Shown here: piece by piece, positions 30,977 through 47,351 of the stretch
How the letters are laid out: the number at the start of each line of letters is the position of its first letter
Numbering within the stretch: the stretch's first letter is position 1
From: Janthinobacterium sp. GW458P
GTDB taxonomy: Bacteria > Pseudomonadota > Gammaproteobacteria > Burkholderiales > Burkholderiaceae_D
Reading direction: 5' to 3'
Length of the DNA stretch: 48,265 nucleotides
NCBI RefSeq assembly: GCF_002127585.1
Contig: NZ_NEGZ01000027.1
Location: forward strand, 1-48,265
Notes under the pieces: generated by a model
Told to the model about the DNA's origin: nothing
The model's database searches: none
Seen by the model: only the letters and a program-made list of their open reading frames with translations
Made by a program: the position numbers and the translations under genes

Positions 30977-31597
30977 ATGCCCGCATTACCGTTCGACGGC
31001 GACCTTGCCGTACCCGGACCTTCCATAGTCGACGGCCTCTGCCACGCAGGCTGGGTCATGCAGGAGCATTTCATTCCCCCCGAACTGAGCCGCCAGCTGG
31101 CCGCCGAGTGCGTGCAATCCATGCTCAGCGGCAAGATGAAGGGCGCCGGCGTGGGCAGCGGCCATGCACCCCTGCTGCAGCCGGATATCCGCGGCGACCA
31201 TATCGCATGGCTGGAAACGGGCAGGTCCGGCGCCTGCGACAGCTATCTGCAGCACATGGAAGCGCTGCGCCAGACCCTGAACCGGGAATTGTTCCTGGGG
31301 CTGGACGAGTACGAAAGCCATTTCGCCCTGTACGCACCGGGCGCCTTTTACCGGGCTCATCTGGACCGTTTCCGCGACGACGACAAGCGCACGGTGTCCG
31401 TCGTGCTCTACCTGAACGAGGACTGGCTGCCCGAGCACGGCGGCGCGCTGCGCTTGCACCCCGATGGCGGTCAGGTGGATATCTTGCCGCAAGCGGGGCG
31501 CATGGCCATGTTCCTGTCGGGCGAGATGCTGCACGAAGTGCTGCCGACGGCGCGCCAGCGTCTTTCCATTGCCGGTTGGTTCCGCCGCAGAGGCTGA
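30977..31597 (+). CDS. 2-oxoglutarate/Fe(II)-dependent dioxygenase family protein
   Basis: A 206-residue protein of the prolyl-hydroxylase-like 2OG-Fe(II) family. The iron ligands are seen as FYRAHLDRF (His and Asp, about 128 and 130) and LHEVLP (His about 185), with a 2-oxoglutarate-binding Arg in ARQRLSIAGWFRRRG. The N-terminal ~60 residues (MPALPFDGDLAV...HFIPPELSRQLAAECVQ) are helical. Substrate is unknown; protein hydroxylation is the usual theme. The ATG at 30977 has AGGA 8 bases upstream. The open frame extends to 30893 but with non-family sequence. It is divergent from metY across 279 bp. Confidence 0.85.
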   Translation: MPALPFDGDLAVPGPSIVDGLCHAGWVMQEHFIPPELSRQLAAECVQSMLSGKMKGAGVGSGHAPLLQPDIRGDHIAWLETGRSGACDSYLQHMEALRQTLNRELFLGLDEYESHFALYAPGAFYRAHLDRFRDDDKRTVSVVLYLNEDWLPEHGGALRLHPDGGQVDILPQAGRMAMFLSGEMLHEVLPTARQRLSIAGWFRRRG

Positions 31598-31807
31598 CGA
31601 CGTCCAAGCAAAACCACTGCGCATCCCGGCCACGCCGCGCATCGGCTCGCTACGTTTTTGCCAGACGTCTTGATAGTGCATCTTGTTGCTTGCAATCCCC
31701 CTCGATTTGATTACGCGCAAGGCTGGATTTTTCCGCAGGCATAGGCTACAGTCGCAGTAAGGGCTTAGAATAACTAAAATACCAATCACGCGGACAGGAC
31801 GGCCAAT

Positions 31808-34587: not shown

Positions 34588-35021
34588 GTATAGCTTCTCC
34601 AGGATGACTCAGTACGGGATGTGAGCACATCAGAAATGTCCATGGCGTTGTTGCACCGCCTCGCCGTACTTGCGTACTGTCTTCGGCGGTGCGCCTAGCC
34701 CTGGCCATTTCTGATGCACTCAGGTCGCATCGAAAATGTAGCACTCAGGTGCTGCCGAGGCTCGCACATTTTCTGATGGTCCATCGTCCAAGTATATAGC
34801 TATTTAATAAGCAAAATGTTTTTTTAAGCCTATTCCGTAGGGCAATATTTCTTGAATTGCATGATTGCAACTCATATTTGGTGTTTTTTATATGAAAAAA
34901 AACACGGTATTTGAAAATGGCGATTTTAGCGGGGCAATATCGGCCTTGCTGCGGCATTAGCGGCATGGCATGCCCCGCAGGCTGGTAGAATTGAGTTTTC
35001 CAGTCCTCACCACTTCCTACT
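34588..35021. other. 434-bp structured intergenic region upstream of the EAL regulator and aroC
   Basis: A divergent spacer with two parts. The left part (34621-34780) is an array of inverted and direct repeats, described separately. The right part (about 34790-34930) is conspicuously AT-rich and includes an A/T hairpin at 34881-34905 (GTGTTTTTT pairs with AAAAAACAC). It probably contains the aroC promoter. I see no gene with family resemblance. Confidence 0.6.
34621..34780. repeat. Nested inverted repeats (hairpin array)
   Basis: Outer arms ATCAGAAATG (34629-34638) and CATTTCTGAT (34706-34715) enclose inner arms GCACCGCC (34653-34660) and GGCGGTGC (34685-34692), with a tip GTAC-TTGC-GTAC (34666-34677). 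To the right is a second structure: AAAATGT (34734-34740) with ACATTTT (34766-34772), around AGCAC-TCAG-GTGCT (34740-34753). The 10-mer GCACTCAGGT occurs twice (34716 and 34741). It lies in the leader of the leftward EAL regulator gene. Confidence 0.7.
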
Positions 35022-36116: not shown

Positions 36117-36203
36117 GCTGAATGTTGTCGGATCACGGGCCTGCGGCCCTGATCCGACCTGCGACCTGGATGGTCGTTTTCTCGTTTAACAACGACACTT
36201 GCG

Positions 36204-36321
36204 ACACCTGACAAAACCATAGCGAGCGGAAGGGAGAGGTGGCTAAGAAGCGCAACCGTACGATAGTACGGTGAGCATCGCAGGCCGCCTATCCCGACGC
36301 GCAGCAGGTTTGGTCAGGTGT
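36204..36321. repeat. 118-bp hairpin element, copy A
   Basis: A 118-bp unit bounded by perfect 9-bp inverted repeats, ACACCTGAC (36204-36212) and GTCAGGTGT (36313-36321). Inside is a perfect hairpin tip ACCGTAC-GATA-GTACGGT, with further pairing such as AGGTGG with CCGCCT. A closely similar unit (about 80-90% identical by eye) lies at 46421-46539. It sits between the 3' ends of aroC and the HDOD gene and ends 2 bp before the HDOD stop triplet. No coding capacity is visible. It may act as a bidirectional terminator, an RNA structure or a miniature mobile element. Confidence 0.85.
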
Positions 36322-36323
36322 TC

Positions 36324-37820
36324 TCACGCCACCTTATTTGCCACCAGCTCGAGCTGATGGCGCATCTCCACCGACTGCACCAATAACGCCCGGATATCGT
36401 TGATCAGGTTGAATTCCGTCTGGTTCAATTGAATCGGCGGGAAGCTGTCGTCCCAGTCGCCGTACAAGAATCCCGTGGGGTGGCCGTTGGCCGACAGCGG
36501 CAGCACGACGAAGCTGCGCGCTTCCGACAGCGTCGCTTTCCACCATTGCGGCAGCTTGGCGGCAAATTTCGGGTCGCGCGCATTGTCGATGAAGATCACG
36601 CGGTCGCTGTTGAGGGCCGCGTGGAACACGTTCGGCTCATACGCGTCGCCAAACACCATCAGGTCCTGCAGGTCGGACATGCCTTCGCCCATGCTGACGC
36701 GGGCCGAATACAGGTGATCCTTGTGATTGCGCACGAACGCCACCGAGCGCGAAAAATCGAAGCCCTGGTGCAGCGTTTCGAGCGCCATCGACACCATTTG
36801 CCCGGGGCTGGCGCTGCCGATGGCGCCGCGCAGGTCGGCCAGGCCGCCGATCAGCACGCGGTTGCCCTCGGCGCGCATGCGCGTCGACGCCAGCTGGCGC
36901 GCGCGCCGTTCCGCCGGTTTCGACAGGGGCGCGATCGACAGATCGGCCGCCGCCATGGCCTTGGCCTTGTCCACCGCCACCACCAGGTCCGTCGCCGCGA
37001 TGCCCAGGGTGCCCGCATAATCGTCGATCAGCGCGTGCACCTGCGCCGCGCCGGCCGCGTCGTCGTGCCACAGCGAGTCGGCGCAGCGCGCCGCCATGGT
37101 CGACAGGCCCGCCATCCAGTCGGCGCCGCTGACGGGCGCGTTGTCCGGCGACGGGTCCATCGGGCGCATGCCGTTGATCAGGTGCTGCGGCAAGCCCCAG
37201 TGGGCGGCCGTGGCATAGCCCACTTCCGGCAGCGACAGGCCGAGGATTTCGCGCGCGGCGGCCGCCTCGTTGCCGGGCCCCGCGTGCGCCTGCATGCGGG
37301 CCCAGAAGTCCGTCATGTAGAACGTCACCATCATGCGTCCCAGGGTGTGCAGCATCGAGCAGACGACGGCCTGCTCGGCCTGCAGGCTGCCGGCGCTGGT
37401 GGCCACCTGCTGCGCCACCATCCCGGCCAGCACGGCCTTTTCCATTTCCACGTGGGCGCTGACGGAGTCGGGCGACGCCTGCGACAGCTCCTCGATCAGC
37501 TTCAGTCCCAGCGCCAGGTGGCCGATGGCGTCGATGCCCAGCACCAGCACGGCTTTCGATACCGTGTTGACGCGCTGGCCGAAGGCCGAGTACATGCCGC
37601 TGTTGGCCAGCCTGAGCACCTTGTGCGTGAGGACAGGGTCGGACAGCACCGTTTGCGTGATGTCGAATTCGTGGTCATCCTCGCCGCGCATGGCGCCCAG
37701 GATGGCGCTGATGGCTTTGGCGAAGCCGGGCATGTCGCCCTGCTGGCGCGTGCGCGCCCACAGCAGGTCAAGGGTGTTTTTGCCGAGCTGGGTCGGCGCC
37801 GTGAAATGACCGGGATTCAT
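36324..37820 (-). CDS. HDOD-domain signalling protein with GAF-like C-terminus
   Basis: A 498-residue cytoplasmic protein. The N-terminal ~270 residues form an HDOD domain (related to HD-GYP but lacking its catalytic motif): SDPVLTHKVLRLANSGMYSAFGQRVNTVSKAVLVLGIDAI is characteristic. The C-terminal ~170 residues resemble a GAF domain (SVAFVRNHKDHLYSARVSMGEG... and SFVVLPLSANGHPTGFLYGDW). HDOD proteins act in signalling, motility and biofilm control. The start overlaps the stop of the upstream GGDEF-EAL gene by 4 bp (ATGA), implying coupled translation and a shared c-di-GMP-linked pathway. Its TGA stop lies directly beside the hairpin element. Confidence 0.88.
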   Translation of the reverse strand: MNPGHFTAPTQLGKNTLDLLWARTRQQGDMPGFAKAISAILGAMRGEDDHEFDITQTVLSDPVLTHKVLRLANSGMYSAFGQRVNTVSKAVLVLGIDAIGHLALGLKLIEELSQASPDSVSAHVEMEKAVLAGMVAQQVATSAGSLQAEQAVVCSMLHTLGRMMVTFYMTDFWARMQAHAGPGNEAAAAREILGLSLPEVGYATAAHWGLPQHLINGMRPMDPSPDNAPVSGADWMAGLSTMAARCADSLWHDDAAGAAQVHALIDDYAGTLGIAATDLVVAVDKAKAMAAADLSIAPLSKPAERRARQLASTRMRAEGNRVLIGGLADLRGAIGSASPGQMVSMALETLHQGFDFSRSVAFVRNHKDHLYSARVSMGEGMSDLQDLMVFGDAYEPNVFHAALNSDRVIFIDNARDPKFAAKLPQWWKATLSEARSFVVLPLSANGHPTGFLYGDWDDSFPPIQLNQTEFNLINDIRALLVQSVEMRHQLELVANKVA

Positions 37821-39556
37821 TGCACACCTCCGCGCGGTTCATTGGCAGGCGGCGTGGGCACCAGCGCCGCATAGGTTTTTTCGCTCAAGGCCGACAGCGC
37901 GGCGTGGGCCGGCATCGGCTTGCCCGTCAGGTAGCCTTGCACGTACTGGCAGCCGCGCGACTCCATGAAGTGCATCTGCTCCTCCGTTTCCACGCCTTCG
38001 GCCACCACCGACAGGTTCAAGTGCTTGGCCAGGTCGAGAATGGTGTTGCAGATGGCCGCGTCCTTGCTCGATTCGGGCAAGTCCTTGATGAAGGTGCGGT
38101 CGATCTTCAGCACGGAAATGGGGAAGCGCTTCAGGTAGGCCAGCGAGGAATAGCCGGTGCCGAAATCGTCGATGGCGATGCGCGCGCGGCGCTCCGTCAT
38201 CTTGCACAGGATGGTTTCCGCATGCACGGGATCGATCATCAGCGTGCCTTCCGTGATCTCCAGCACCAGGTGTTCGCCCGAAAGCCCCGAAAAGGCGATG
38301 GCGTCGTCGAGCACGTCGAGGAATTTATCGTTGCGGAACTGGCGCGGGCTGATGTTGACGGAAATGTACAGCGCCCGCCTGGCCACTTCCTGGAACTGCT
38401 TGAGCTGCACGCAGGCCGCCTTCAGGGCCCAGGCGCCCAGCAGGTTGATCAGGCCGTTCGCCTCGGCGATCGGGATGAAGCGCACGGGCGGCACCAGGCC
38501 CAGGGTAGGGTGCTTCCAGCGCATCAGGGTTTCAAAGCCCTGGATCTGGCGCGTGTGCGCGTCGACGATGGGCTGGTAGAAGAGCAGGAATTCGCCTTCG
38601 CGCACGGCGTGGAACATGGCCGCTTCCAGAGAAATGTCGTGTTCCGACGGGCCATTCAGGCGCGGGCTGTAGACGAGGCAGCGGGCCTTGCCCGTCTCCT
38701 TGGCGCGCGACATGGCCGCATCGGCCAGCGCCACCAGGCGCACTTCGTCTTCCGCATGCAGCGGATAAATCGATACGCCGACGGACGCCCCCACGTAGAT
38801 CGTATGTCCCTCGACTTCGAACGGCGCCTGCAGGGTGGCCAGCAGGCGCCCCGTCACCAGCTTGATCTGCGCGTCGGTGGCGCTGCCGGGCAGCACGGCG
38901 ACAAATTCATCGCCGCCCACGCGGGCCAGGGTGTCGCTGTCGCGCAGGGTCTTGCGCAGGCGCGCCGCGGCCAGGCGCAGCACGGCGTCGCCGACCGGGT
39001 GCCCCAGGCCGTCGTTGACCTTTTTGAAGCCATCGAGGCCGATGGTGGCCACGGAAAAGCCCTGGCCCGAGCGGGCGGCCTGGGCGATCACCATGCGGAT
39101 GCGGTCCGACAGCAGCAGCCGGTTCGGCAAGCCGGTCAGCGCATCGTGCGTGGCCATGTGGCGCAGGCGTTCTTCCGTATTGTGCTGGGCCGAGGTGTCG
39201 CGCCCGACCACCAGCAATTCGGCCACGCCGGCCGCGTTCATATAGGAAGACAGGCGCAGCTCGAACCAGATCTCCTGGTCCGGCGTCTGCAGCCGCACTT
39301 CCAGCCGCCCCGGTTCTTCCAGCGCGTCTTCCAGCGCCGCCTGCAGCGCCGCGCGCGACGCTTCGGCCGCCAATGGCAGCAGCAAATGGCCGGACAGGCC
39401 CAGTGGCGCGCCGAACAGGGTGGCCGCGCGTCTGCTGGCGAACAGGATCAGGCCGTCCGCATCGAGCCGGAACACGACGTCGCCAGCCTCTTCCATGAGG
39501 TTGTCCAACTCGTGGCGGGCCTCGCGGTGGGCGGCGGATGGGGTACTGGAAAACAT
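37817..39556 (-). CDS. PAS-GGDEF-EAL protein with EAL motif changed to ETL
   Basis: A 579-residue cytoplasmic signalling protein. An N-terminal PAS-like domain (about 15-125, DVVFRLDADGLILFASRRAATLFG) is followed by a GGDEF domain (about 135-300) with intact VGGDEF and by an EAL domain (about 315-560). The EAL motif reads FETLMRW, so Ala is replaced by Thr while the metal-binding Glu is kept. The other catalytic stretches are present: ITEG (in place of ITES), [17 protein letters not shown] and AEGVET. Cyclase activity is expected; phosphodiesterase activity is possible but uncertain. The ATG at 39556 is chosen over upstream in-frame codons because the family-like sequence begins there. It is coupled to the HDOD gene. 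Confidence 0.88.
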   Translation of the reverse strand: MFSSTPSAAHREARHELDNLMEEAGDVVFRLDADGLILFASRRAATLFGAPLGLSGHLLLPLAAEASRAALQAALEDALEEPGRLEVRLQTPDQEIWFELRLSSYMNAAGVAELLVVGRDTSAQHNTEERLRHMATHDALTGLPNRLLLSDRIRMVIAQAARSGQGFSVATIGLDGFKKVNDGLGHPVGDAVLRLAAARLRKTLRDSDTLARVGGDEFVAVLPGSATDAQIKLVTGRLLATLQAPFEVEGHTIYVGASVGVSIYPLHAEDEVRLVALADAAMSRAKETGKARCLVYSPRLNGPSEHDISLEAAMFHAVREGEFLLFYQPIVDAHTRQIQGFETLMRWKHPTLGLVPPVRFIPIAEANGLINLLGAWALKAACVQLKQFQEVARRALYISVNISPRQFRNDKFLDVLDDAIAFSGLSGEHLVLEITEGTLMIDPVHAETILCKMTERRARIAIDDFGTGYSSLAYLKRFPISVLKIDRTFIKDLPESSKDAAICNTILDLAKHLNLSVVAEGVETEEQMHFMESRGCQYVQGYLTGKPMPAHAALSALSEKTYAALVPTPPANEPRGGVQ

Positions 39557-39914
39557 CGTGCTGGATTTAACCTTTATCAGTGCCGGCGCCCGCGTATTGC
39601 ATGGCGCCAACGGAAATAATGCATATTGCAGTGCGCCCGGGTATCGGGCAAGAGTGACTACGGGAACGCGATCCACACGAAATGTATCATTGAAAAGCAC
39701 AGCAATACATGAAATAGAGCAACATTGCTTCAGGTTTTGTAAATATTCCTGTCTTTCATGAAAAAAATCAGCATGCTTTTAATCCGTCCGCAAACACCCG
39801 GCGGTGGCGCGCTTGCCCCGCTGGCGCGTTTGCGCTAGTCTGGCTGGCAGACGATGAGGACGGTGCGCCTGCCGCGGCAAGGCGCCATGATAACAAATCG
39901 CGATGGAGATACCC
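39557..39914. other. Divergent intergenic region between GGDEF-EAL gene and aidB
   Basis: About 350 bp without a supported gene. It must contain the promoters of both flanking genes. The segment 39661-39780 is relatively AT-rich and contains a short palindrome AGCAA-CA-TTGCT (39718-39729). No convincing -35/-10 pair was identified. Confidence 0.4.
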
Positions 39915-41597
39915 ATGAATGCCTTTGACACGCATGAAGTTTTCAACCAGGCGACGCCGTTCGAAAACGTCAATCTGTTCGCCAGCGATCCGGCCCTGAT
40001 CGAGGCCCTGCTGCGCGAGGGCGGCGGCGCGGCGCTGCAGGAACTCGATGCGCTGGGCGAGAAGCTGGGCCGCGCCGGGACGTATGCGCTGGCGCGCGAG
40101 GCGAACCGGCACGGTCCGGAATTGCAGCAGTTCGACCGCGCCGGCCGGCGCATCGACGAGGTGCTGTTCCACCCGGCCTGGCATGAACTGATGGCCATCC
40201 TCGTGGGCGCCGGCGCGCACGCTTCGCCGTGGGCCGCGCCCGGCCCCGGCGCCCAGGTGGCGCGCGCGGCCGCCTATCTATTAGTGGGGCAGGTGGAAAA
40301 CGGCGCGCAATGTCCCGTGACGATGACGTATGCCTCGGTGCCGGCCCTGCGCCAGGCCCTTGATCTGCCGCAAATCGCCGCGCGCTGGCTGCCGAAGATC
40401 CTGTCGCGCGACTACGACCCCCGTTCGCTGCCCGTGGAGCAAAAGCGGGGCGCCCTGGTCGGCATGGGCATGACGGAAAAGCAGGGCGGCTCCGACGTGC
40501 GCAGCAATACCACGCGGGCCACGCCCGTGCCGCCGGCCGAGGCGCAAGCCCTGTTCGGCGAGCAGGCCGGCGGCGCCTGGCGCATCGTCGGCCACAAATG
40601 GTTCTTTTCGGCGCCGCAGTGCGACGCCCACCTGATCCTGGCGCAGGCGGACGAGGGCGGCTTGTCGTGCTTTTTCCTGCCCCGCTACCTGCCCGACGGC
40701 AGCCGCAACGCCATCCGCGTGCAGCGCCTGAAGGATAAGCTGGGCAACCGCTCGAATGCCTCGTCGGAAGTGGAGTTCGCCAACGCCTACGGCTGGCTGG
40801 TGGGCCCGCCGGGGCGGGGCATTCCCACCATCCTGGAAATGGCCAGCCACACGCGCCTCGATTGCGTGCTGGGCAGCGCCGGCATCATGCGCGCCGCCCT
40901 GACGCAGGCGCTGCACCATGCGCGCCAGCGGGCCGTCTTCGGCAAGCCGCTCGTCGCGCAGCCGCTGATGCAGAACGTGCTGGCCGACCTGGCGCTCGAA
41001 TCGGAGGCCGCCACGGCGTTTGCGCTGCGCCTGGCCCGCTGTTTCGACGAAAAGGACGATGCGCAGCAGGCGATGCTGGCGCGCGTGCTCACGCCGGCCG
41101 GCAAATACTGGATCTGCAAGCGCGGCCCCGGCTTCGGCGCCGAGGCCATGGAAGTGCTGGGCGGCACCGGCTACGTGGAAGACGCGCCGCTGGCGCGCCT
41201 GTACCGGGAACTGCCCGTCAATTCCATCTGGGAAGGCTCGGGCAACGTCATGTGCCTCGATGTCCTGCGCGCCTTCGGCAAGTCGCCGGCCGCGCGCGAC
41301 GCCCTGGCGGCCGAACTGGCGCTGGCCGGCGACGCGGATGCCGCCTTTGCCGGCTACCGCACGCGCCTGCTGGCTGACCTGGACGGCCCGCAAACGGACG
41401 AATTTGGCGCGAGGCAACTTTCCGAGCGCATCGTGCTGGCCGTGCAGGCCGGCCTGCTGCTGCGCCATGCGCCGCCGTTTGTCGCACAGGCCTTCATGGA
41501 GTCGCGGCTGGTGCAGGCGCCGGGCGGCGCATATGGGCGCTTGCCGGCCGGCACCGATTGCGCGGCCATCCTGGCGCGCGCCCTGCGCGAGTATTGA
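39915..41597 (+). CDS. aidB: AidB-like acyl-CoA dehydrogenase family protein
   Basis: A flavoprotein related to E. coli AidB of the adaptive response to alkylation damage. The 560-residue product matches AidB closely: [22 protein letters not shown] at the N-terminus, [35 protein letters not shown] (FAD region), [33 protein letters not shown], and [20 protein letters not shown]. AidB homologues bind DNA and FAD and may have weak isovaleryl-CoA dehydrogenase activity. An ATG four codons upstream (39903) exists, but 39915 has GGAG at proper spacing. No ada or alkA gene is nearby, so regulation by Ada is not shown here. Confidence 0.93.
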
Positions 41598-41740
41598 CGG
41601 GCGCCGTCCGCAATTATTTCAAAATTCCGGCCACAGGCGGGCCGCGGGCTGGGATAATGCTGCAATCCATCATTTTATCGATACACAGCGCGCTTGCGGC
41701 CATGCTTGCCGCCGCGCCAGAGCAGAGAAAGAAAAACAAT

Positions 41741-42391
41741 ATGAAACAAGATCCGCGCTTCCCGAATTTGTTCATTACCGATCACCCTTTGATCCAGCAC
41801 AAACTGAGCCACATGCGCGAGCACGACACGTCCACGCGCACCTTCCGTGAATTGCTCAAGGAAATCACCTTGCTGATGGGCTATGAAATCACGCGCGACC
41901 TGCCGCTGACCACGCGCGAAATCAGGACGCCGCTGGTGACCATCGATGCGCCCGTTATCGCCGGCAAGAAACTGGCCATCGTGCCGATTTTGCGCGCCGG
42001 CATCGGCATGAGCGACGGCCTGCTGAACCTGGTGCCATCGGCCCGGGTCGGCCATATCGGCGTGTACCGCGACCCGGCTACCCACATGCCCGTGGAATAC
42101 CTGGTGCGCCTGCCGGACCTGAACGAGCGCACCTTCATTCTGTGCGACCCGATGGTGGCGACCGGCAATTCGGCCGTGTACGCCGTCGACGTGCTGAAGA
42201 AGCGCGGCGTGACGGACGAGCAGATCATCTTCCTGGCCCTGGTGGCCGCTCCGGAAGGCGTGACCGTGTTCCAGAACGCGCACCCAAACGTCAAGATGTT
42301 CTGCGCCTCGCTCGATTCGCACCTCGACGAGCACGCCTACATCGTGCCGGGTCTGGGCGACGCCGGCGACCGCATCTTCGGCACCAAGTAA
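41741..42391 (+). CDS. upp: Uracil phosphoribosyltransferase
   Basis: Salvages uracil to UMP using PRPP, in the cytoplasm. The 216-residue product starts [28 protein letters not shown], typical of Upp, and contains [15 protein letters not shown], the PRPP loop [23 protein letters not shown] (about residue 134), and the C-terminal [13 protein letters not shown]. The open frame extends upstream to 41558 but with unrelated residues; the ATG at 41741 follows a purine-rich AGAGAAAGA. It lies 143 bp after aidB and 23 bp before the Hpt gene. Confidence 0.96.
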
Positions 42392-42414
42392 GCGCATAGA
42401 CGGCGAGTATCGCG

Positions 42415-42777
42415 ATGGCAACCTTGATCGACCCGGATTTTCGCGCCCGTTTGCGCGCCCTGAACGATAAATATGCGGCTGGCGTGCCGGCCCTGATGCA
42501 GGCGATCGCGCAGGCGCAAGCGCGCTGCGACAGCGAAGGGCCGCGCCTGGAACCGCTGACGCAGCTGCACCGCGCCCTGCATGCGGTAGCCGGCTCGGCC
42601 GCCACCTTCGGTTTTGCCGCGCTGGGGCAGGAATGCCGGCGCATCGAGCAGCTGGTGCGCCTGCAGCTCAACGCGCCCGGACAGGTGCTGGCCGAGTGGC
42701 CGGCGCTGAGCGGGCAGGTGGGGGCGCTGCTGCGCTGGGCGGAGCGCGATGCGGCCGCCACCCATTTCAGCACTTGA
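42415..42777 (+). CDS. Orphan Hpt (histidine phosphotransfer) domain protein
   Basis: A 120-residue helical protein made up of one Hpt domain. The phospho-accepting histidine is in LHRALHAVAGSAATFGFAALG (about residue 56, HAVAGSA in place of HxLKGSA). Hpt proteins relay phosphate between hybrid histidine kinases and response regulators. No kinase is adjacent, so its partners lie elsewhere. It may be co-transcribed with upp (23 bp spacing), although their roles seem unrelated. Its start has only a weak GGCGAG sequence upstream. Confidence 0.8.
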   Translation: MATLIDPDFRARLRALNDKYAAGVPALMQAIAQAQARCDSEGPRLEPLTQLHRALHAVAGSAATFGFAALGQECRRIEQLVRLQLNAPGQVLAEWPALSGQVGALLRWAERDAAATHFST

Positions 42778-43075
42778 GTGACCATTTTTCGATCTTGTGG
42801 TTGCAATGATTCATTTGATGCAACGCAAAGCATCCACGTCGCAGATTAGGATATAGTGTGTCCATGCCGCTGGTACAGGGCGCCGCAAGACGGGGATTTG
42901 GCTATTAAAGCAGTGTTCGCAAGTTTATTTTGCGAAAGAATGGTTTTTCTCAGTTTTGTTGGTATAATTGGGCATCGTTGGATTCGAGGTAGTAGTGCAG
43001 TTTGTCTGTCATTTCTTTCTTGCTTCAAACGATATAACGGGCGCAAGCCCAACTTAACTGAAATAGGAAATTGTA
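42778..43075 (+). promoter_or_regulatory. Promoter and long leader of cspA-type gene
   Basis: An extended -10 element TGGTATAAT lies at 42960-42968. A matching -35 is weak (TGGTTT near 42941). Transcription from it would give a leader of roughly 100 bases before the cspA ATG at 43076. Long structured leaders are typical of cold-shock genes. The upstream part of the region shows nothing else I can name. Confidence 0.5.
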
Positions 43076-43279
43076 ATGGCAACTGGCATCGTAAAATGGT
43101 TCAATGATTCGAAGGGTTTCGGCTTTATTACCCCTGACGAAGGCGGCGAAGATCTGTTCGCTCACTTCTCGGCTATCCAGTCGAACGGCTTCAAGTCCCT
43201 GCAAGAGAACCAACGCGTTTCTTTTGAAGTGACCGCTGGCCCTAAAGGCAAGCAAGCTTCGAACATTCAGCCAATCTAA
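43076..43279 (+). CDS. Cold-shock protein, CspA family
   Basis: A 67-residue single-stranded nucleic-acid-binding protein acting as an RNA chaperone. RNP-1 is KGFGFI (about 13-18) and RNP-2 is DLFAHF (about 27-32), within the usual five-stranded OB fold; the N-terminus is [11 protein letters not shown]. Length is normal. It is transcribed alone with its own promoter and leader and a strong terminator. Bacteria of this group usually carry several paralogues, so constitutive versus cold-induced expression cannot be judged from sequence. Confidence 0.95.
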
Positions 43280-43303
43280 TACGCTGGATCAAACGAAATA
43301 AAG

Positions 43304-43331
43304 AAATCCTCGGTCTCCGGGGATTTTTTTT
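43304..43331 (+). terminator. Rho-independent terminator after csp gene
   Basis: A 10-bp stem AAATCCTCGG / CCGGGGATTT (one T-G wobble) with loop TCT is followed by a run of eight T. A second small hairpin, GCCTGAA / TTCAGGC, follows at 43333-43351. Confidence 0.9.
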
Positions 43332-43426
43332 CGCCTGAATTTCCTTCAGGCAGGGGTTTTGTGGGCTTTTGCGGATGTTTGGCGCGTGCATTGTCGCTTG
43401 GCTTCGCTTCCGCGGCTGTCTGGTAG

Positions 43427-43521
43427 GTCGGCTTAGCGCTTGCGCGTAAGCCGACATGTATGCTCGCATTCTCTGTCGCTACCGTGCTGGCAGTTGTTGG
43501 CTTACGCTGCGCTAAGCCGAC
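43427..43521. repeat. Pair of inverted REP-like palindromes
   Basis: The first unit is a hairpin GTCGGCTTA ... TAAGCCGAC (43427-43455). The second is GGCTTA ... TAAGCC (43499-43518, extendable to 43496-43521). The second is in inverted orientation relative to the first, since both share GTCGGCTTAGCGC when read on opposite strands. This resembles the REP/BIME-type palindromes common in proteobacterial intergenic regions. The rest of 43280-43616 has no gene. Confidence 0.7.
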
Positions 43522-43616
43522 CAACGCCGGCCTACGCACCCACGTCTAGGCCGCGAGCGTCACGGCGCCCAATCGCCCCGTGACAAGCGCCGCGCGGCAG
43601 GTTTGGTCCCGCGTCT

Positions 43617-44528
43617 TCAAATAGCGCGTTCGCGCCAGTAGTCCGGCTGCGAATAACTGTGCCGTAAAAAATCCACGAACGCCCGTATGCGCAGCGGTAA
43701 ATGGCGGCGCTGGGCGAACACGGCATAAATGTCGTTGCCCGGCGCGGCAAACTGGTCGAGCACCGTCACCAGCTGCCCCGATTCGATCTCCGCGCCGACT
43801 TCCCACATCGAACGCCATGCCAGCCCCTTGCCGGCCAGCGCCCAGTCGTGCAGCACTTCGCCGTCGTTGCAGACCATGTTGCCCGCCACCTTCAAAATCA
43901 CGTTCTTGCCATTTTCGCGGAAAGTCCAGCCCCGCTGGCTGCCTTCGCTGCTGATGGCCAGGCAATTATGTTTCGCCAGGTCGGCCGGGGTGCGCGGCGT
44001 TCCCGCCCGTTTCAGATAGGCGGGCGAGCCGACCAGCACGCGCTGGTTGTCGGCCAGCTTGGTGCTCACCAGGGACGAGTCGGACAGGCTGGCGATGCGG
44101 ATGGCCACGTCGATGCCTTCGCCGATCAGGTCGACGAGGCGGTCGTTCAGGTTCAGCGACACGGTCACGTCGCGGTGTTCGGCGACGAACGAGGGGATCA
44201 AGGGCGCCACATGCTGGCGTCCGAAGCCGGCCGGCGCGGAAATGAGCAAATGGCCGCTGGCCTTCACGCTGCGCTCGGCCACGGCCGCTTCCGCCTCTTC
44301 CAGTTCGCCCAGGATGCGCTGGCAGTCTTCGAGGAAGGCGGCGCCTTCATTCGTCAGCGCCAGCTTGCGCGTCGTGCGCTGCAGCAATTTCACGCCCAGG
44401 CGCTGTTCCAGCGCGTCGAGGCGTCGGCCTATCATGGCCGGGGCGATCCCTTCCGCGCGGGCGGCCGCCGACAGGCTGCCCCTGGCGACCACTTCCACGA
44501 AGGTTGATATTTGTCTGAACTGGCCCAT
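43617..44528 (-). CDS. LysR-family transcriptional regulator
   Basis: A 303-residue DNA-binding protein. The N-terminal winged helix-turn-helix is MGQFRQISTFVEVVARGSLSAAARAEGIAPAMIGRRLDALEQRLGVKLLQRTTRKL. The C-terminal ~200 residues form the effector-binding fold (LLISAPAGFGRQHVAPLIPSF...). It is of the CrgA/AaeR-like subgroup. It is divergent from aceB with 216 bp between, which holds a palindrome suited to LysR binding. It may control aceB or itself; this is inference only. The effector is unknown. Confidence 0.9.
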   Translation of the reverse strand: MGQFRQISTFVEVVARGSLSAAARAEGIAPAMIGRRLDALEQRLGVKLLQRTTRKLALTNEGAAFLEDCQRILGELEEAEAAVAERSVKASGHLLISAPAGFGRQHVAPLIPSFVAEHRDVTVSLNLNDRLVDLIGEGIDVAIRIASLSDSSLVSTKLADNQRVLVGSPAYLKRAGTPRTPADLAKHNCLAISSEGSQRGWTFRENGKNVILKVAGNMVCNDGEVLHDWALAGKGLAWRSMWEVGAEIESGQLVTVLDQFAAPGNDIYAVFAQRRHLPLRIRAFVDFLRHSYSQPDYWRERAI

Positions 44529-44603
44529 GTGATGCTCCCGCTATGTCGTCACTTGTGATAAAAACGCATAGATGAAGTGATTTTTAATCTCGTTTCCATG
44601 CCT

Positions 44604-44620
44604 TATAGTGCAATACTATA
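44604..44620. promoter_or_regulatory. Perfect palindrome, candidate LysR operator
   Basis: TATAGTGCAATACTATA is a 6-5-6 perfect palindrome containing the T-N11-A pattern of LysR-type sites (T at 44606, A at 44618). It lies between the LysR gene and aceB, 76 bp from the regulator start and 124 bp before aceB. Confidence 0.55.
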
Positions 44621-44744
44621 GAACAAACGCGCGGCCCGGCAGAGTGTTTTTGCGCCTCTGCCCAGCTTGCCTGCGCAGTCGTTCCGCTTATACTTGGATC
44701 ACCAGATTATTTTTGCTTATATTTATTAAAAACCGGAGAACTTC

Positions 44745-46343
44745 ATGACGCAGAACACGATCGCACTTCCCGAAGGCATGCAAATCACGGGTGAAATCGC
44801 CCCCGGCTACGAACAGATCTTGACGCCCGCGGCGCTGGCGCTGGTGGCCAAGCTGACGCGTGAATTCGAGCCGCGCCGCCAGCAATTGCTGGCCGTGCGC
44901 GTGGAACGGGCCAAGCGCCTTGACGCGGGCGAGCGTCCTGATTTCCTGCCAGAAACCGCGCATATCCGCGACGGCGACTGGAAGATCGCGCCGATCCCGA
45001 AGGCGCTGGAATGCCGCCGCGTGGAAATCACCGGTCCCGTCGAGCGCAAGATGGTCATCAACGCCTTCAACTCGGGCGCGGACAGCTACATGACGGACTT
45101 CGAGGATTCGAACACGCCGAACTGGGATAACCAGATCACGGGCCAGATCAATATGTACGACGCCGTGCGCAAGACGATTTCGCTGGAGCAAAATGGCAAG
45201 TCGTACAAGCTGAACGACAAGATCGCCACCCTCGTCGTGCGTCCGCGCGGCTGGCACCTTGATGAAAAGCACGTGCTGGTCGACGGCAAACGCATCTCCG
45301 GCGGCATTTTCGATTTCGCCCTGTTCATGTTTCATAACGCCAAGGAACAGCTGGCGCGCGGCGCCGGCCCGTATTTCTACCTGCCGAAGATGGAATCGCA
45401 CCTGGAAGCGCGCCTGTGGAACGATATCTTCGTCATGACGCAGAACGAGTTGGGCTTGCCACAAGGCACGATCAAGGCGACCGTGCTGATCGAAACCATC
45501 CTGGCCGCGTTTGAAATGGATGAAATCCTGTACGAACTGAAGGAGCACAGCTCGGGCCTGAACGCGGGCCGCTGGGATTACATCTTCTCGTGCATCAAGA
45601 AATTCAAGCTGGACAAGGATTTCTGCCTGGCCGACCGCGCCAAGGTCACGATGACGGCGCCGTTCATGCGCGCCTACGCCTTGCTGCTGCTGAAAACCTG
45701 CCATAAGCGGGGCGCGCCGGCCATCGGCGGCATGGCGGCTTTGATCCCGATCAAGAACGATCCGGAAAAGAACGACATCGCCATGGGCGGCGTGCGCAAC
45801 GACAAGGCGCGCGACGCCACCGACGGCTACGACGGCGGCTGGGTCGCCCACCCGGGCCTGGTCGAGCTGGCCATGGGCGAGTTCACCAAAGTGCTCGGCG
45901 ACAAGCCGAACCAGATCGACAAGCAGCGTCCCGACATCGATGTGAAGGCGTCGGATCTGCTGAATTTCCAGCCGGAAGCGCCGATCACGGAAGCGGGCTT
46001 GCGTTACAACATCAACGTGGGCATCCATTACCTGGGCAGCTGGCTGGCCGGCAACGGTTGCGTGCCCATCCACAACCTGATGGAAGACGCGGCCACGGCC
46101 GAGATCAGCCGCTCGCAAGTGTGGCAGTGGATTCGTTCCAGCAAGGGCGTGCTGGAAGACGGCCGCAAGGTGACGGCCGAGATGGTGCGCGCCATGATTC
46201 CGGAAGAGCTGGCCAAGGTGCAGCGCGATGCGCCGGGCGGCAACGGCCCTACCTATGTGCGCGCCGGCCAGATCTTCGAGGAAATGTCGACGTCGGAATC
46301 GTTCGCCGAATTCTTGACCTTGCCGCTGTACGAAGAAATCTGA
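44745..46343 (+). CDS. aceB: Malate synthase A
   Basis: Condenses glyoxylate and acetyl-CoA to malate, the second step of the glyoxylate bypass. The 532-residue length matches form A. The signature [17 protein letters not shown] (about residue 266) is exact, and other landmarks are [32 protein letters not shown], and [39 protein letters not shown] near the C-terminus. GGAG precedes the ATG at 44745. A LysR gene is divergent upstream and a strong terminator follows. The isocitrate lyase partner (aceA) is not in the window. Confidence 0.97.
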
Positions 46344-46365
46344 TCCTGATCAAATAACCGCATAA

Positions 46366-46405
46366 AAAAATCCCGGCAATGCTTTTTGGCACTGCCGGGA
46401 TTTTT
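46366..46405. terminator. Rho-independent terminator after aceB
   Basis: A long stem AAATCCCGGCA / TGCCGGGATTT, extended by TGC / GCA across a single A-C mismatch, closes over the loop TTTTTG. It is flanked by A and T runs, so it could terminate both aceB and the convergent gloB. Confidence 0.9.
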
Positions 46406-46420
46406 GTATTGAAGTCTGCA

Positions 46421-46539
46421 ACGCCTGACAAAACCGTAGCGAGCGGAAGGAATAGGTGGTCGAGAAGCGCAACCGTACTTCTAGTGCGGCGAGCATCGCA
46501 GGCCGCCTATGTCGACGCGCAGCAGGCTTGCTCAGGTGT
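46421..46539. repeat. 119-bp hairpin element, copy B
   Basis: Aligns end to end with 36204-36321 with about 20 differences and one indel in the tip loop. The tip stem is kept as CCGTAC-TTCTA-GTGCGG, where a T-G wobble replaces a T-A pair. Terminal arms ACGCCTGAC and CTCAGGTGT are less perfect than in copy A. It lies between the 3' ends of aceB and gloB and ends 2 bp before the gloB stop triplet, the same arrangement as copy A. Confidence 0.85.
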
Positions 46540-46541
46540 CC

Positions 46542-47351
46542 TCAGAAGTTGTTCTTCCACATCCGCAAGGCCGCGAATGCTTCCACGGGAGAGGCGTCGG
46601 CGGCCAGCTTGCCCTCGACCTTCAGGCTGTTCAGGATGGCCGGTTCGCGGTAGCGCAGGAAGGGGTTCGTGGCTTTCTCAATGGCAATGGTCGACGGTAC
46701 GGTCGCTAAACCTTGCTGGCGTTTTTCCGTGTCGATGGCGATGCGTTCCTGCAAGGCCGCATTGCCCGGCTCGACGGCGTTGGCGAAGCGCAGATTGGAC
46801 AAGGTGTACTCATGCGCGCAAAATACCTCGGTATCGTCGGGCAGGGCGGCCAGCTTGCCCAGCGAATCGGCCATCTGGCCCGGCGTGCCTTCGAACAGGC
46901 GGCCGCAGCCGCCGGCAAACAGGGTGTCGCCGGAAAACAGCCACGGCGCGCCGCTGCGCTCGTCGCGCTGGCGCACGTAGGCGATATGGCCTTTGGTATG
47001 GCCGGGCACGTCGATGACGGTCATCTGCAAGCCAAGTTCGGGCACGCAGGCGACATCGCCTTCGGCAAGCGCTTGCGTGATGGCTGTGATAGCCTCATTG
47101 CGTGGGCCGAATACGGGCACGGCGAAATGCTGCAACAATTCAGGTACGCCACCCGTGTGGTCGGCGTGGTGGTGCGTGAGTAAAATGGCGGACAAGGTCA
47201 GCTGATGGGCTTTGAGCGCGTCGAGGATGGCCATCGCGTCGCCGGGGTCGACCACGGCGGCGTGGCGGCCGTCATGGATCAGCCACAGGTAATTGTCGGC
47301 AAAGGCGGGCACGGCAAGTACCGATAAAGCGTGTTCAGGGGAGTGTGTCAT
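46542..47351 (-). CDS. gloB: Hydroxyacylglutathione hydrolase (glyoxalase II)
   Basis: Hydrolyses S-lactoylglutathione to D-lactate and glutathione, completing methylglyoxal detoxification. The 269-residue metallo-beta-lactamase-fold protein has [10 protein letters not shown] (about 57-66), [25 protein letters not shown] and CAHEYTLSN, all ligands of the binuclear centre or substrate site. It ends RMWKNNF, as in the family. The start at 47351 is chosen because [25 protein letters not shown] fits the GloB N-terminus. It is divergent from the methyltransferase gene by only 19 bp. Its stop lies beside the hairpin element. Confidence 0.93.

Follow-up and report, generated by a model that had tools for sequence, protein, structure and literature searches.

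The NEMIS/Correia, ERIC and bcr1 repeats are imperfect palindromes of 100-170 bp with features of mobile elements, and the attC sites of integrons, which bear conserved R and L boxes at their ends, are situated just after a stop codon, with a folded strand antisense to the adjoining gene, free pairing and conserved unpaired features. REP elements located between convergent genes lie mostly less than 20 bp from both open reading frames (ORFs), and those between unidirectional genes near the 3' end of the upstream gene, according to PMC3733652. The Beta-proteobacterial repeat element (BRE) is described in PMC3110155 as a chromosomal repeat of Betaproteobacteria that is usually intergenic and not aligned with the replication fork. 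Here we describe a further family of palindromes, represented by two full copies in a 48,265-nucleotide stretch of DNA from Janthinobacterium sp. GW458P (hereafter the window), namely copy A (36204..36321) and copy B (46421..46539), both given on the plus strand, which is the folding strand. Our leading reading, still tentative at a probability of roughly 0.42, is that they are members of a mobile, non-coding family whose recognition depends on the shape that one strand adopts on folding, and which sharply prefers the 3' ends of genes.

Placement and folding of the element

Each element consists of one long hairpin, which measures 118-119 nt in the window copies. The initial annotation of this DNA had placed two copies within the above bounds, with inverted ends (ACACCTGAC/GTCAGGTGT), a CCGTAC..GTACGG tip differing by one base in length between them, one stem pair changed from T-A to T-G, and a conserved GTGT-T/C-CTCA continuing into the stop codons of the abutting HDOD and gloB genes, and all of these features were recovered. 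The number of copies proved to be much larger than two. With copy A as BLAST query, 40 matches were scored out of 131 candidates in the GW458P genome, and a covariance model (R1), for which 29 of 30 copies retrieved as loci were used and one with a long insertion was omitted, returned at least 150 rows at E <= 0.01. Subtracting 9 reverse-strand echoes of the palindrome and 6 weak short rows leaves at least 135 places, which include both full window copies. Tandem occurrence is rare among them, with one triple (contig C139) and one close pair (C91). The triple, at C139:12640-13228, consists of three consecutive copies with a common 5' flank, apparently produced by duplication of the element together with its flank.

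The position of the elements relative to genes was determined for 134 of the 135 GW458P copies (one was shorter than 120 nt), using a codon-usage gene caller trained on the retrieved stretches. By the test applied, all 134 lie outside called genes. On the 3' side, 115 copies adjoin an antisense gene whose stop codon faces the element, 18 a sense gene and one no gene. The stop codon lies between -3 and +4 nt from the 3' end of the element in 95 of the 115 antisense copies and between -13 and +9 in 106, with a mode at exactly +1 (39 copies). Compared with random placement within the same gap, 94 of 114 stop codons fall within -3 to +4, where 17 would be expected, and the preference for gene 3' ends proposed in the initial annotation is therefore strong when measured relative to stop codons. 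On the 5' side, where the stop codon of the neighbour faces the element in 64 copies and the start codon in 69, just 2 of the 64 stop codons lie within the same range (13 expected). The abutting stop codons comprise 43 TAA, 31 TGA and 22 TAG, a usage similar to that of the genome (221, 177 and 70). Because all three occur, the element is not in general the supplier of the stop codon, which lies inside it in a few copies (5 at -9 and 4 at -13 to -8).

Placement at stop codons reaches beyond the genus, although it is looser there. At least 120 stretches were obtained by a pattern scan of named genomes; 80 of them were scanned and 79 placed, locus L237 being omitted because the element stands at the locus end. 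An antisense gene is present on the 3' side at 50 of the 79 loci, with its stop codon at -13 to +6 in 41 of the 50. Among 24 of 25 loci mostly of other families, a long antisense ORF ends 0 to +2 nt from the element in eight and at -9 and -13 in two more, the rest being sense or unresolved. Since the elements are found mostly near stop codons and mostly in the same orientation, something must either place them there or keep them there, and a placement to within a few bases of any of the three stop codons is hard to explain by a DNA target sequence alone. What is required is a mechanism or a form of selection in which the ends of coding sequences play a part. Single-stranded DNA of the lagging strand was rejected as the driving force, because three closed genomes with 70, 41 and 92 copies at E 1e-8 show no replication-strand bias (among 50 of the 70, 32 of the 41 and 68 of the 92 copies).

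The fold is conserved as well. In a family-wide alignment of 93 sequences, which was fitted to the structure and thus favours pairing, 96.4% of the cells pair, 35 of the 40 stem pairs are changed on both sides, and 922 doubly changed cells are present versus 274 in shuffles; the pairing falls to 29-41% when one side is slid by 1-3 columns. A plain MAFFT alignment of 29 GW458P copies still contains 20 of 40 doubly changed pairs, so that covariation is present both in the genome itself and across the family. All nine basal pairs carry changes on both sides. The letters of the stem vary widely yet pair, and the internal loops (GTA/A, GA/GCA, A/A and GCA/GA) are nearly invariant; the consensus positions above 90% include GCG-AGC, gAGAAGCGCAG, GAGCATCGCA and GCGCA around these loops.

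The fold is maintained on one strand. On the plus strand, G-T pairs outnumber A-C pairs by 223:20 family-wide, and by 81:12 and 95:11 in two further counts (two reverse-strand rows being dropped from the latter), which identifies the plus strand as the one that is kept folding; in most copies this strand is antisense to the abutting gene. The plus strand is also the more stable as RNA in 120 of 132 GW458P copies. As to the window copies, both strands of copy A fold far better as RNA than shuffles (z -7.4 plus, -5.2 minus), and copy B is weaker (z -3.0 plus), its minus strand resembling shuffles (z -0.4); under DNA parameters neither strand of copy B outperforms shuffles (z 0.02 plus, 1.54 minus). 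RNA and DNA parameters give z-scores of -4.83 versus -4.05 for the GW458P copies and of -7.61 versus -6.35 for the family, and such modelled energies do not separate DNA from RNA as the folded strand.

Distribution and turnover at single sites

Matches were obtained in 34 of 37 genomes of the genus, GW458P among them. At the family level, a match at E 1e-6 is present in 167 of 294 genomes, representing 32 of the 44 sampled genera, as judged from up to 11 scored candidates per genome. At the class level, a second model (R2) detects matches at E 1e-5 in 25 of 369 genomes, belonging to 21 of 272 genera; most of the distant ones are near 158 nt long and have a longer tip. A set of GW458P matches of 149-152 nt (e.g. 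C71:81957-82106) exceeds the model by about 13 nt, and in distant relatives the excess is about 20 nt. The hosts found by the pattern scan include members of Massilia, Telluria, Herbaspirillum, Janthinobacterium, Undibacterium, Ralstonia, Zoogloea, Thauera, Aromatoleum, Pseudogulbenkiania and Variovorax, with Solimonas as a host outside the Betaproteobacteria, and one copy from Janthinobacterium sp. GW456P has its flank in common with a GW458P copy. None of the 4227 models of Rfam 15 reaches its gathering score in the window, and none matches up to E 5 at 36150-36400. The family thus represents a strongly constrained and widespread structured element without an Rfam match in the tests made.

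Some genomes carry very few copies. A set of 35 genomes from 15 genera was picked because they looked low-copy, and 33 of them have exactly one match at E 1e-3. As named from sequence, the abutted genes in this set include pstB, groEL, thiolase genes and genes for a transporter and a fatty-acid oxidation protein, as well as, in three genera, a citrate-synthase-like gene with 384 codons; further copies lie upstream of sense genes. In five low-copy groups the element core diverges by 0, 0, 0, 1.8 and 12.6%, as opposed to 16, 16, 18, 30 and 53% at fourfold sites, and in a sixth the core differs by 19% and the flank by 25%. Two Massilia loci from the pattern scan have the element beside a PstB-like protein. 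Deep conservation of the element at pstB was considered and rejected, because just 3 of the 30 pstB loci retrieved (of 84 genomes with a match) carry it, all from one genus.

Within the window, copy A lies between the convergent genes for aroC and an HDOD protein (36324-37820, minus; PF08668), the TGA stop codon of which (36324..36326) is 2 nt past the element by the bounds of the initial annotation. Copy B lies between the convergent genes for malate synthase A and gloB (46542-47312, minus; TIGR03413), and the gloB stop codon (TGA, 46542..46544) is again 2 nt past the element. A third copy, absent from the initial annotation, was detected on the minus strand with model R2 (27.3 bits, E 1.9e-5; model match 31590-31678, core 31599..31669). 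It has lost its middle and retains the basal stem, belongs to the six weak short rows set aside in the count, and begins 1 nt past the TGA (31595..31597, plus) of a 2OG-Fe(II) oxygenase-like ORF. A doubtful fourth match at 34614-34730 (minus, 17.9 bits, E 0.008) may be a decayed relative or due to chance. A second palindrome, which is REP-like (GTCGGATC..GATCCGAC), occupies 36127-36158 in the gap separating aroC from copy A, and in relatives the same gap contains GTAGGTCGGATTA-type hairpins or other inverted repeats. A terminator-like hairpin with a T run at about 46363-46405 follows malate synthase A ahead of copy B; similar hairpins occur in relatives with and without the element.

The sites of the two full copies (sites A and B) differ in occupancy between species. 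At site A, for which the loci of 30 of the 37 matching genomes were compared, six carry a full element, one a truncated form (genome G032) and two short hairpins (G007 and G005), and none was seen in the other 21; the gaps of relatives hold other hairpins. At site B, three of 30 loci carry a full and four a shortened element, and 23 are without it. The shortened forms retain the basal stem. The stop codon and last codon of gloB (46540-46547) also differ between alleles with and without the element, reading TCA-GAA in six of the seven element-bearing alleles and TTA-GAA in the seventh, compared with TTA-AAA in 22 of the 23 alleles without it, at an unchanged amino acid. Across six species at site A, paired positions differ in 15 of 1260 comparisons and internal loops in 18 of 450, while the fourfold sites of aroC differ in 479 of 2910 and the 5' flank in 97 of 1305. 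The variable 4-base tip (36262..36265 on the plus strand in copy A) differs in 33 of 60 comparisons, exceeding the 16% of the fourfold sites. At other sites, tip variation ranges from 0 to 92%, on few bases.

A different kind of change is observed in the pstB-phoU gap of six Herbaspirillum-like genomes, which contains two types of element. They show 0-3 differences within a type and 31-37 of 115-118 positions between types, whereas the fourfold sites of pstB differ in 15-27 of 120 and those of phoU in 12-29 of 105, within and between types alike. As the element types diverge without being tracked by the flanking fourfold sites, these sequences point to an exchange of whole elements. Gradual compensation would hardly explain the two types; whole-element exchange would, either by re-insertion or by recombination of a short tract. 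These genomes offer a natural experiment on precise replacement.

Explanations for the placement and the conserved fold

If the elements are mobile, an enzyme acting in trans might read the folded strand through its loop modules, like the integron integrase at attC or RAYT at REP, and insert or swap the element, in a single orientation, at the 3' ends of genes. An inserted element would then cost the host little and may be retained as a boundary at the end of the gene. Such a structure-reading enzyme would explain the invariant loops next to freely varying stems, the turnover at single sites and the exchange of whole elements. Several observations weigh against this reading. A sense gene is present on the 3' side in 18/134 GW458P copies and at 25/79 named-genome loci, and no matches were found on plasmids (E 1e-8) or phages (E 1e-5). 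At site B the stop and last codons differ as well, so that the element cannot simply have inserted into the allele found elsewhere today, and no target duplication is visible there by eye. The very low rate of change of the element compared to fourfold sites could equally reflect selection at the level of the host, and the block swap in the pstB-phoU gap could be short-tract recombination. Moreover, REP elements too lie near gene 3' ends (PMC3733652). Finally, no mobilising enzyme was found. The initial annotation had suggested a transposase of the RAYT type, for which a search with PF01797 at E <= 1e-6, a limit that leaves room for divergent RAYTs, gave no link: the Y1_Tnp domain occurs in 24 of 26 genomes, is missing from G015 with 70 copies and is present four times in G028, where no copy of the element was found. 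Since PF01797 does not follow the copy number, a RAYT-driven REP was rejected.

The most serious competitor, which we regard as rather unlikely, is a cis-acting structured RNA in read-through or antisense transcripts running towards the abutting gene, which would fold to stop or block them at the border of the coding sequence and serve as a one-way insulator at gene ends or, in sense copies, as a leader. The fold is indeed on the strand carried by such transcripts, one conserved pair is most often a G-U wobble (63/91), and RNA z-scores are below DNA z-scores in 102 of 134 GW458P copies. Furthermore, 11 of the 18 sense copies end 12-45 nt upstream of the start codon, and the element core is unchanged over 16% fourfold divergence in single-copy genomes. 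The 4-base tips can be read both ways, as 8 GNRA and 4 UNCG tips occur among 65 in the family, compared with about 3 in total expected from random letters, but neither type is found among 44 such tips in GW458P, where the strict tip pattern is fitted by only 48 of 134 copies. Plus-strand transcription does not appear systematic, since no more than 64 of 133 copies have a 5' neighbour whose stop codon faces the element. A simple consensus scan of 132 upstream flanks detected no promoter signal (best score 15.88 versus 15.71 in shuffles), and with promoter-like scores at the level of shuffles a dedicated small-RNA gene was rejected. The same applies to an intrinsic terminator, as the 134 3' flanks, read by eye, contain no consistent T run; a terminator would also need no position within a few bases of a stop codon. 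With a folding strand antisense to the abutting gene, mixed 5' neighbours (64/69) and no promoter signal, regular plus-strand RNA at the elements is unlikely; read-through or antisense transcription is possible.

The initial annotation had offered site choice at 3' ends or a selected RNA 3' structure as explanations. The former fits the data; the latter is a poorer fit, as it is the strand antisense to the abutting gene, and not its mRNA, that carries the conserved fold. An mRNA 3'-end element on the transcribed strand, which would protect or end the message of the abutting gene as REPs can, accordingly appears improbable. It would be consistent with the start of the element right after the stop codon in most copies and with the transcribed strand, too, folding better than shuffles (median z -3.88), but the G-T pairs of the plus strand correspond to mismatches on this strand, and in 50 of 51 abutting copies outside GW458P the greater stability is that of the plus strand. 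The antisense copies of GW458P keep the transcribed-strand fold better than the sense copies (0 of 10,000 permutations); as the independent family set shows the opposite trend, this difference was set aside.

Similarly slim is the chance that insertion is guided by the end of translation, with a mobile element finding stop codons as such, whatever their letters. In that case a copy of the element might, for example, be joined to an end of a nucleic acid that arises at sites of ribosome termination. The plus strand that folds would then represent a DNA copy of the transcribed strand which has become integrated at the 3' end of the gene. We know of no mobile element that targets the end of translation, no search aimed at one having been made. 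The least probable explanation assumes no function at all, with covariation arising from arm-to-arm template switching in a long palindrome and gene-end positions being the survivors of purged damaging insertions, which would match the variable tip (33/60 at site A) and the frequent shortened forms, but both the asymmetric loops and the conserved G-U pair persist, although template switching would erase them too, and purging predicts a spread over the gap and a like distribution on the 5' side rather than a mode at +1.

Relation to known palindromic repeats

Considered as a mobile element recognised by its shape, the present family shares the traits of attC outlined above, namely a folded strand antisense to the adjoining gene, a site just after the stop codon, free pairing and conserved unpaired features. 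It differs in lacking invariant end boxes, as all nine basal pairs vary, and the genes beside both full window copies occur without the element in relatives; identity with attC was rejected because there is no invariant end sequence. Compared by description only, NEMIS/Correia, ERIC and bcr1 have ends of fixed sequence that are absent here, and a miniature element of the Correia or ERIC type (MITE) was rejected for want of fixed terminal inverted repeats. A literature search with the core sequence and general terms gave no recognised description of the present element, BRE being the nearest. Like BRE as described in PMC3110155, the present element is found on chromosomes of Betaproteobacteria, is usually intergenic and is not aligned with the replication fork. 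BRE differs from it in measuring 75-91 bp in Bordetella, in often occurring in tandem and in variable number, and in sometimes lying wholly within coding sequences (PMC3110155); tandem arrays of variable number were not seen in GW458P. An overlap of the two families, compared by description only, is conceivable in view of a conserved inner part of roughly 90 nt in the present family but seems unlikely.

The REP/GTAG palindromes with RAYT are likewise dispersed intergenic palindromes near gene 3' ends, and a further likeness is the motif CGT[AC]GCGAGC in 77 of 93 members of the present family. GTAG itself occurs inside the present structure, as GTAGCGAGC in 56 of 93 and GCGCAGTAG in 60 of 93 members. 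Unlike REPs of 20-40 bp, the present element comprises 118-119 nt, or about 158 nt in distant relatives, and has a freely varying basal stem. The ends of GTAG REPs often supply a TAG stop codon, according to PMC3733652, whereas the present element in general does not supply it. Hairpins in bacterial intergenic gaps may stem from several distinct systems. We rate the present family as a variant of the dispersed palindromes, in which it is surprising how precisely the element is placed at stop codons and that whole elements have been exchanged.

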